A DNA stretch of 64,000 bases, taken from Nematopogon swammerdamellus (lineage: Eukaryota > Arthropoda > Insecta > Lepidoptera > Adelidae). Positions 23,601-26,600 of the stretch are shown here, piece after piece. Every line of letters starts with the position of its first letter. Within the stretch, counting starts at the first letter, position 1. Location: assembly GCA_946902875.1 (NCBI GenBank), contig OX336337.1, positions 4,774,001 to 4,838,000 of the forward strand. Direction: 5' to 3'. The translations under genes were made by a program, and so were the position numbers. Under the pieces are notes generated by a model that was given only the letters and a program-made list of their open reading frames with translations, did not search any database and was not told the origin of the DNA.

Positions 23601-26600
23601 GATCGCCAGTCTCAAGACATCAGTACAAGATCACTCAATTTCAAAAACATCTCCCTCTGTGTTCTTGCATCAAATTATTTCTTTTTACATCAAAACCGAA
23701 GAAGAAGCCAAAGAAAGAGAACTCACTTGAAGTTCTTCTTGTAGAGCAGGAAATTTAAAAAACATCTCCCTCTGTGTTCTTGAACCAAAATAAAATGGAT
23801 TTTTACATTAAAACCCAAGAGCCAACGAAATAGAGCTCGCATGAAGCTCTTCTTGTAGAGCAGGAAATTTCAAAAACATCTCCCTCTGTGTTCTTGAACC
23901 AAAATATAATGTCTTTTTACATCAAAACCCAAGAGTCAACGAAATAGAGCTCGCATGAAGTTCTTCTTGTAGATCAGGAAATTCCAATAACATCTCCCTC
24001 CGTGTTCTTGGACCAAAATATTATGTCTTTTTACATCAAAACCCAAGAGTCAACGAAATAGAGCTCGCATGAAGTTCTTCTTGTAGATCAGGAAATACCA
24101 AAAACATCTCCCTCTGTGTCCTTGAACCAAAATATGTCTTTTTACATCAAAACCCAAGAGCCAACGAAATAGAGCTCGCATGAAGTTCTTCTTGTAGATC
24201 AGGAAATACCAAAAACATCTCCCTCTGTGTCCTTGAACCAAAATATGTCTTTTTACATCAAAACCCAAGAGCCAACGAAAGTGAACTTACTTGAAGTTTT
24301 TCTTGTAGAGCAGGAAGCTGGCCGGAATGCCGATGAGGTACGGAGTGGGAGCCAGCAGGAGCTGCTCCGCGCAGCTCATGCACGTCGGCAGCAGCGGTAT
24401 GGCGGGGAACATGTACTCGAGCGGATACAGCATCGCGACCATCGCCATCACCGACATCGACAGCGCGTTGTAGTCCCGTGACTGCAGCACCACTTTGTTC
24501 TCCAGGAGGATCAGCGTGAGGACCTTCAAGCACGTGTCGACGCCTGGAATGAAATCCTTAGTTGTGCGAAAGGAGTTTATTATTTTACTAGCCTGAATGA
24601 AAAACATTGATCATATTTGTATATACTGTCAAATCATGGTATTCACCATCTTCTTTATTTCTTGGAAATTCACTTTCCCTTACTAGGTTTAATTGTAGCC
24701 GACTGAGTTGATACCACCTTACTGGATGTAAGATGGCTGGCTAAGGATGGCTGTGTTCTCCTTCTAGTATCAATCAATCAAGCAATCCAGGTAAGTCTCC
24801 GGTATGACACCTACCTTCTCGGAGGTGATATTGACTGGCATATGGTTTGGCCCTTCTGAATAAGACACTCCTACCCGATTACATTAAAAACTATTGTTAA
24901 ACAAGACGCATGTCATTTTCTTTAGGTTTAAGGTGTATTAGGTAATGGAATCGAAGCTACATTTGGAGAGGTGTATGTCCAGCAGGAGACGCTGATACGC
25001 TGACTGACTGGCTGACTGACATTACTATTAAAGCTTACTTCATTTGGACTTCGTTTGCGGAACATTGCAAATAGGTAAGTGGATAGTATCTAGTTCAGGA
25101 GGCAGTGATGGAAAAGCGTGTATGAAAATCTGAAACAAAAAAATGTTTTGTCTGTAAAGTCGGTTTACGGACGATAGTTTTACGTGATAACGTCAATTTC
25201 TGCTGCCCTGGTACTTTAGAACCAGAGAGATAAATGTGTACAAGCCGACGCTTGGGCCGATTGTGCCTCTCTATCGCTTGTTACGCGCTCCCGCTTGCAC
25301 ACACAGGCTCAAATGGAACGTGACACTTTTTCGTGCGTGCAGCCGGTGTTCATCAATTTATAAGACGTGACGTTATTACGTCAAAAAATTTTGACTTGTA
25401 CCTTTTTTTGACGTAAGGACTAAAGATGGAACTTACACTGAGTGTCTCAAACATAAGAATGGTCTTGAAACTTCCAAGAATTCCAATCGTATTATTTACA
25501 ATGCCTTTTTGCCGATTATTCCTCAAACGATTTCTGACTGACCTAATGATTTTGACGGACAGAATTTACCTAAAAGTTCAAGAGGCAGATGAAGAGGGAA
25601 GTCGACCAAGGCGAATCGTGTGTGGTCAGGGAGTGCGAAGGTCAGCGGCGCGTGCACAGTGGGCGAGAGGACCTCCATCTCTATCTTGGTCTTGCCGGGG
25701 ATAGGCACTGGAGCCGACAGCAGCCGCAGTATCCACGTCTCGATCTCCTTGATGTCGTGGAGGACTATACTCGGCGTGTTGTCGTAGGCCTGGCCCGTCA
25801 ACACTGACCATACCGTATCTCTGGAAATGAGAAAAGCTTTTATATTCCACCGCTCGGCGCCGACCATGGTTGACCTCCTAATTTAGAGACGTGGGTAGTT
25901 CGTACTTTCTCCGCCAGATATTATGTTTGTCGGCAGAACAGATCGTCGCTTACTAATCAGGATTCTGGACTTCAGTACCATAAATATTCATAATGATACT
26001 GATACCTATAATGGTATCCCAAAAATTGGGGTAAGCAGAGTAATCGGTGTTGCGCTGCAAGAACTCTTATAATTTTCAGCACAACACCGACCACCACGCT
26101 TAAGTAAGTATTAGGACTATTATAACGATTAAGCATCAAGTAAGGCACGAAGACCCACCTGCTGCATGACTTGGTTGAAGGACCGCGTCACCTCACACTG
26201 TGGCTAGCCTATCGCGCTTTAGCATGGCATCTTGTCCTTATCCTTTAGTAGCCTTTTGCGACGTGCACGGGGAGAGATGCAGTGGGGCTATTATTTTTAA
26301 GTGCCGGCCCCACACGGTACGAATATAATAACTTTTGAGATGTATTTAAGATCGCGGCAACTAAAATGATCCGCACATTATCCCCCATACTTATTGTTTG
26401 GACTTACCTAAATATTTGTCTGGAGGCGCCGACGCGCCGGGGACTGGAAGACTCGTTGCAGGCATCGATCAGCTTTTTAAGGATAAAGAGGCACTCGCGG
26501 AATATCGAGAAGAAAGGGTGGTGGGACAGCAAGCAGAGGGACGTCAGTGAGTGGTTCCGGACCCGCTGTGGACACAAACAAAAATATGCACCTTAAAGCC

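Follow-up and report, generated by a model that had tools for sequence, protein, structure and literature searches.

An intronic tandem array carrying copies of an exon-intron boundary in the MADD/Rab3-GEF gene of Nematopogon swammerdamellus

Introduction

The minisatellite of the IFI6 gene is built of 12-bp units that span an exon-intron boundary. Its downstream repeat units act as splice donors (PMC4526556), and it is the closest precedent for the locus described here: both are tandem repeats at an exon-intron boundary and both carry donor sequence in their units. The two differ in that the units of the present array measure 111-114 bp and that, by score, four of its five extra donors are dead, whereas in IFI6 the downstream donors are used. 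A second related process is the gain of introns in Drosophila through tandem duplication of exon sequence, which (Lehmann et al. 2010, PMC2891723) shares with our locus the tandem duplication of coding sequence together with a splice motif. There, however, the duplicated AG|GY makes a new intron within coding sequence, whereas here the copies sit in an intron that was already present, with no sign of a new one. Intronic VNTRs have also been reported to affect splicing in TERT intron 6 (PMC3948165) and ABCA7 (PMC5954066). These are likewise intronic minisatellites of animal genes, but differ from the present array in the splicing effect reported for them. Finally, in human data intronic decoy donors are rarer in RNA than exonic ones, and the most competitive intronic decoys near the donor are depleted (PMC8964760). 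No report of the present array was found among open-licence literature titles, which is a weak negative given the limited coverage of that literature.

Results

The array resides in the seventh coding exon and following intron of MADD/Rab3-GEF

All positions below refer to the window, the whole stretch of 64,000 nucleotides that was analysed. Its minus strand carries the MADD/Rab3-GEF gene, for which an approximate 731-residue model served as query. Of 7991 candidates that were scored, 218 proteins matched it at E <= 1e-3; the listed homologues referred to below are 120 of these 218. The best match was a protein of the butterfly Euphydryas editha (80% identity over 63% of the query), named by one source as MAP kinase-activating death domain protein, while the highest identity among the matches listed belonged to the moth Phthorimaea operculella (87% over 37% of the query). 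When the Euphydryas protein was compared with the window by tblastn, coding blocks were found at 30.8, 29.8, 29.2, 27.1, 26.6, 25.9, and 24.5 kb, the last of which is the seventh, and the name "exon 7" given to it in the preliminary description is therefore right for coding exons. Pfam searches recovered uDENN (1.9e-10) and DENN (PF02141, 1.8e-20, on the joined exon 7 and exon 8 peptide), with a dDENN piece reaching only 20.4 bits, under its cut-off of 26.8. The protein matches, the uDENN/DENN domains, and the exon-by-exon tblastn thus agree with the earlier assignment to Rab3-GEF. Viral and prokaryotic contigs, searched for sequences related to the exon, yielded no confirmed match, as expected for an animal gene.

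Exon 7, the DENN-domain exon (24291..24543, minus strand), ends with FLLYKKNF plus the AA of a split lysine codon. The tblastn matches of the lepidopteran proteins P0001 and P0006 begin at 24544 and overrun the exon end into the intron; by eye, the acceptor reads ATTCCAG|GCGTCGAC. Exon 8 (LPDDVWLVDLD..., 22139..22265, minus strand; tblastn 22267-22136) follows an acceptor scoring 5.36, the highest in the scanned region, and ends by eye at GTAAGC. The phase of the exon 7-exon 8 junction, AA|G for lysine, matches the canonical donor and gives the product ...SFLLYKKNFK LPDDVWLVDLD.... A regular expression found the standard 14-residue junction spacing in 75 of the 120 listed homologues, including both lepidopteran ones, P0001 and P0006, with another spacing in 6 and the remaining 39 unmatched and counted neither way; an earlier, narrower expression had matched 67 of the 120. 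Among the six odd spacings, those of P0100, P0101, and P0103 come from matches extending as far as a later motif, while P0045 is off by one residue. The spacing is thus widely kept, and splicing at 24290 gives the standard junction. The preliminary description placed this junction in the most conserved part of the DENN domain; the FLLYKKNF letters themselves vary, for example to FFLYKLDF in many of the listed vertebrate proteins. As a separate observation, extra residues stand at KKNF/KKHF before LPDDVW in the protein models of Rhynocoris (P0011, four residues, ISSS) and Cherax (P0060, eight residues), which may reflect an alternative acceptor at the same old intron, a small exon, or an annotation error.

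Six head-to-tail units include the true exon end

Tandem Repeats Finder reported one array at 23637-24316 (6.0 copies, 90% matches, score 984), and a separate repeat search recovered a 47-nt core six times in register at spacings of 114, 114, 114, 111, and 111. An array of six such units is far beyond chance. On the minus strand the units run head to tail from 24316 down to 23639, and when aligned all begin with TTCCTG, each consisting of a 26-base exon end, 14 bases of donor region, and about 71-74 bases of intron sequence. Unit 1 (24206..24316, 111 bp) holds the true exon end, its donor, and the first intron bases, and is followed by unit 2 (24095..24205, 111 bp), which has the dead donor GCGAGC and whose last 71 bases equal those of unit 1. 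Units 3 (23981..24094), 4 (23867..23980), and 5 (23753..23866), each 114 bp, also have dead donors. Unit 6 (23639..23752) is the most diverged, and its length of about 114 bp follows from an outer end set at 114 bases by script, the end in Tandem Repeats Finder being 23637. The array noted in the preliminary description is therefore real, although the "last ~27" exon bases in each unit are 26 (24316-24291) and its five units are the intronic ones, making six with the true exon end. It was also correct that a period of 111 keeps the frame in the newest units, but this extends to all periods (111, 111, 114, 114, 114), every one a multiple of three. Reading through the true donor does meet TAA immediately, as had been stated, and further in-frame stops past exon 7 lie in unit 3 (one), in unit 4 (two), and at the distal donor of unit 6 (TGA).

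With head-to-tail copies of 111-114 bp and recent copying among neighbouring units (119 bp exact at a shift of 111), the array has these two properties of a minisatellite; both its unit structure and this recent block copy are read from the sequence itself. Where the intron sequence joins the next exon copy, hardly any sequence is shared (about one T by eye), which would fit a duplication by simple end-joining or slippage. Hairpin-based effects were also considered, but no inverted repeats of at least 20 bases were found within 23000-24800.

By score, only one intronic unit retains a donor-strength site

All scores obtained here with donor and acceptor matrices, and with the U1 5' end, are rough. 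On this scale, the canonical donor GTAAGT (24285..24290, minus strand) scored 8.98, the top value among GT/GC sites scanned in 22210-24360, and the donor-like GTGAGT of unit 6 (23721..23726, minus strand) was second at 8.94. The sites of units 2-5, CAT|GCGAGC, scored 1.53 each. Energies for the duplex with U1 followed the same pattern, at -5.6 kcal/mol for 24290, -0.7 for the four middle units, and -5.7 for 23726. Compared with the true donor, the middle sites have changed to T at -1, C at +2, G at +3, and C at +6, which makes them poor donors even of the GC type. The aligned units bear out the previous report that the farthest one keeps GTGAGT while the four between have GC, but its "up to six look-alike 5' splice sites" are too many: scoring all six, as it had proposed, leaves two that look usable (24290 and 23726), which are equally strong, and four dead by score. 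The repeat thus resembles IFI6 in overlapping an exon-intron boundary, with unit 1 as the true boundary, but not in having several units of donor strength, as by these rough scores this applies to one of the five intronic units. The array could therefore act in the manner of IFI6 in one unit at most. Strong sites are also not confined to the array. Minus-strand sites scoring at least 8.94 number 24 in the 64 kb, or 0.38 per kb, such that ~0.8 would be expected per 2-kb intron, and the same intron contains further GT sites at 22919 (8.41) and 22524 (8.26).

The middle units descend most simply from a single dead-donor copy

After the exon end, units 2-5 are identical at 14 of 14 bases in all six pairs, and since these bases include the donor-killing changes, parsimony indicates that the donor was lost once. 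A single donor loss followed by copying would most simply account for the four middle units. Units 1 and 2 agree at 71 of 71 positions in the intron part and at 32 of 40 in the exon end plus donor (Fisher p 0.00017), with the 119-bp exact repeat at shift 111 spanning this unit 1-unit 2 copying; such a contrast is expected when the copied block consists of the intron piece and the next exon copy. Unit 6, which has diverged most in its intron part, agrees with unit 1 at 37 of 40 exon-and-donor positions and at 61 of 70 intron positions plus 5 gap columns. The exon-and-donor part is thus not significantly better preserved (p 0.53), and in this small test nothing points to selection for the distal donor. 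We therefore do not support selection on the unit 6 donor. It is a tempting idea that only a dead-donor copy could multiply without harm, but four copies that go back to one apparent loss lend it no weight.

The array matches one place in the genome, and minisatellites of similar build are not rare in the sample

When the whole array was searched against the 699-Mb, 39-contig genome by a method that passes over very common words, a single place matched. Within the window, units 2 and 6 had no match outside the array better than E 0.065, and no unit copies were found at E <= 1e-5 in 19 sampled stretches of 10 kb each. This sample (190 kb) is non-random: 10 stretches lie on the same contig, where they start at round coordinates, and the remaining 9 on other contigs. 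Two of the 19 stretches, L015 (96-99 bp) and L017 (126 bp), contain arrays of 3 or more copies whose base period falls within 80-150. This count leaves out L012 (135, which is twice 68) and L016 1798-2470 (149, roughly a triple of 51); L016 also holds a 151-bp array of 12.3 copies, just beyond this range. Many more arrays of period at least 40 occur in the sample, with a 68-bp family being the commonest. Among the sampled stretches, a minisatellite built in this way is therefore nothing unusual.

Several other repeats were observed in the window. The 68-bp tandem family (AAGTAACTAAGGGCGAGGCCGAAGGCCGAGCTGCGTTC...) occurs at 198-469 and 1098-1655 and is dispersed, with blastn matches at E <= 1e-5 in 6 of the 19 stretches and arrays of 67-71-bp period in several. 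A degenerate TCTG tetranucleotide array of about 42 copies lies at 29210-29379, between coding blocks 2 and 3 of MADD/Rab3-GEF. In the same intron as the boundary array and antisense to the gene, a reading frame at 23182-23511 (plus strand) has 4 blastn matches in the window, including itself, and matches in 12 of the 19 sampled stretches. It had no Pfam match, and we take it to be reverse-transcriptase-tail-like. This piece was considered as a source of the array and set aside, as it lies outside the array and nothing ties the two together.

Discussion

We consider it very probable that the array grew as a neutral minisatellite after an exon-intron boundary had been duplicated, and that the canonical donor is the one used. 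What follows is inferred, from the sequence of events and the one-time loss of the donor (by parsimony) to the neutral fate of the array and the donor that is chosen. A tandem duplication would have placed in the intron a copy of the final 26 bases of exon 7 and of the donor, with about 85 intron bases in all. An internal copy would then have lost its donor (AA|GT to AT|GC), and this dead-donor copy may have multiplied by unequal exchange or slippage to give the four middle units, leaving the outermost copy as probably the oldest. The first donor (24290) is most probably still the one used by the spliceosome, such that the whole array would leave with the intron. The preliminary description had offered both neutral repeat growth and a splice-site decoy array. 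Neutral growth fits the shared donor loss, the exact block repeat, and the frequency of minisatellites in the sampled stretches, while the decoy reading is weakened by the four of five extra sites that are dead by score and by the fact that strong donor-like sites are not rare. One observation counts against the neutral account: the outermost unit has kept a donor that equals the true one in strength, something not required of a copy in plain decay. In addition, the human depletion of competitive decoys (PMC8964760) means that a strong decoy would not be expected to be harmless at every distance, and the distal site is 564 bases away.

The equality of the distal site and the true donor in both score and U1 pairing is also the attraction of supposing that the array recruits U1, with extra sites that bind U1 snRNP and either tune splicing or shield the intron from early polyadenylation. 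We regard this as very unlikely, given the four dead sites and a background of 0.38 strong sites per kb on this strand, by which ~0.8 would be expected in a 2-kb intron anyway. In human data, moreover, intronic decoy donors are undepleted save for the most competitive, and <4% of exonic GC decoys appear in RNA (PMC8964760). The same data fit the tolerance of the middle units; by comparison the distal site would rank as competitive, yet it lies past the 150 bases plotted there. A nascent in-frame exon is slightly harder still to credit. The 45-nt piece from an acceptor at 23771 (CACAG|AGGG, at the end of unit 5) to the distal donor is indeed symmetric and open and would form a cassette that repeats FLLYKKNF, and the Rhynocoris and Cherax models provide two arthropod cases with extra junction residues. 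Against this, only 3 of the 37 AG acceptors between the true and distal donors give an open symmetric exon with the distal donor, which is unremarkable, and these three (23846, 23771, and 23765, minus strand) score -7.38, -2.39, and -11.73, respectively, compared with 5.36 for the true acceptor; even the best acceptors anywhere in the array reach 0.66. With the 45-nt piece inserted, the Pfam DENN match becomes shorter and drops from 74.1 to 61.1 bits, a doubled FLLYKKNF-like motif was found by regular expression in 0 of the 120 listed homologues, and the arthropod extras may be acceptor shifts or annotation errors.

Tandem arrays are prone to assembly error, so the copy number could have been falsely expanded or collapsed. 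We consider such an artefact no likelier than the nascent exon, since the unit-to-unit differences are ordered and the contig is chromosome-sized (27.95 Mb), from which a long-read-type assembly is likely. The boldest scenario, which we hold to be very unlikely, is that the distal donor 23726 is used at a low level with an array acceptor. The minisatellite would then serve as an exon nursery and place a symmetric 45-nt FLLYKKNF cassette in the DENN domain in some neurons, with copy number altering its inclusion between individuals.

With neutral growth from a duplicated boundary as the favoured account, the array offers a clear snapshot of an exon-intron boundary seeding a minisatellite in a gene that can still be read. 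The copy that multiplied is one with a donor dead by score, and the sole extra strong donor within the array is the one 564 bases from the true donor. If RNA showed the distal donor to be used, the locus would lend itself as a natural experiment on how donors are chosen and how growing repeats give rise to exons. For now, the array looks like ordinary genome turnover.
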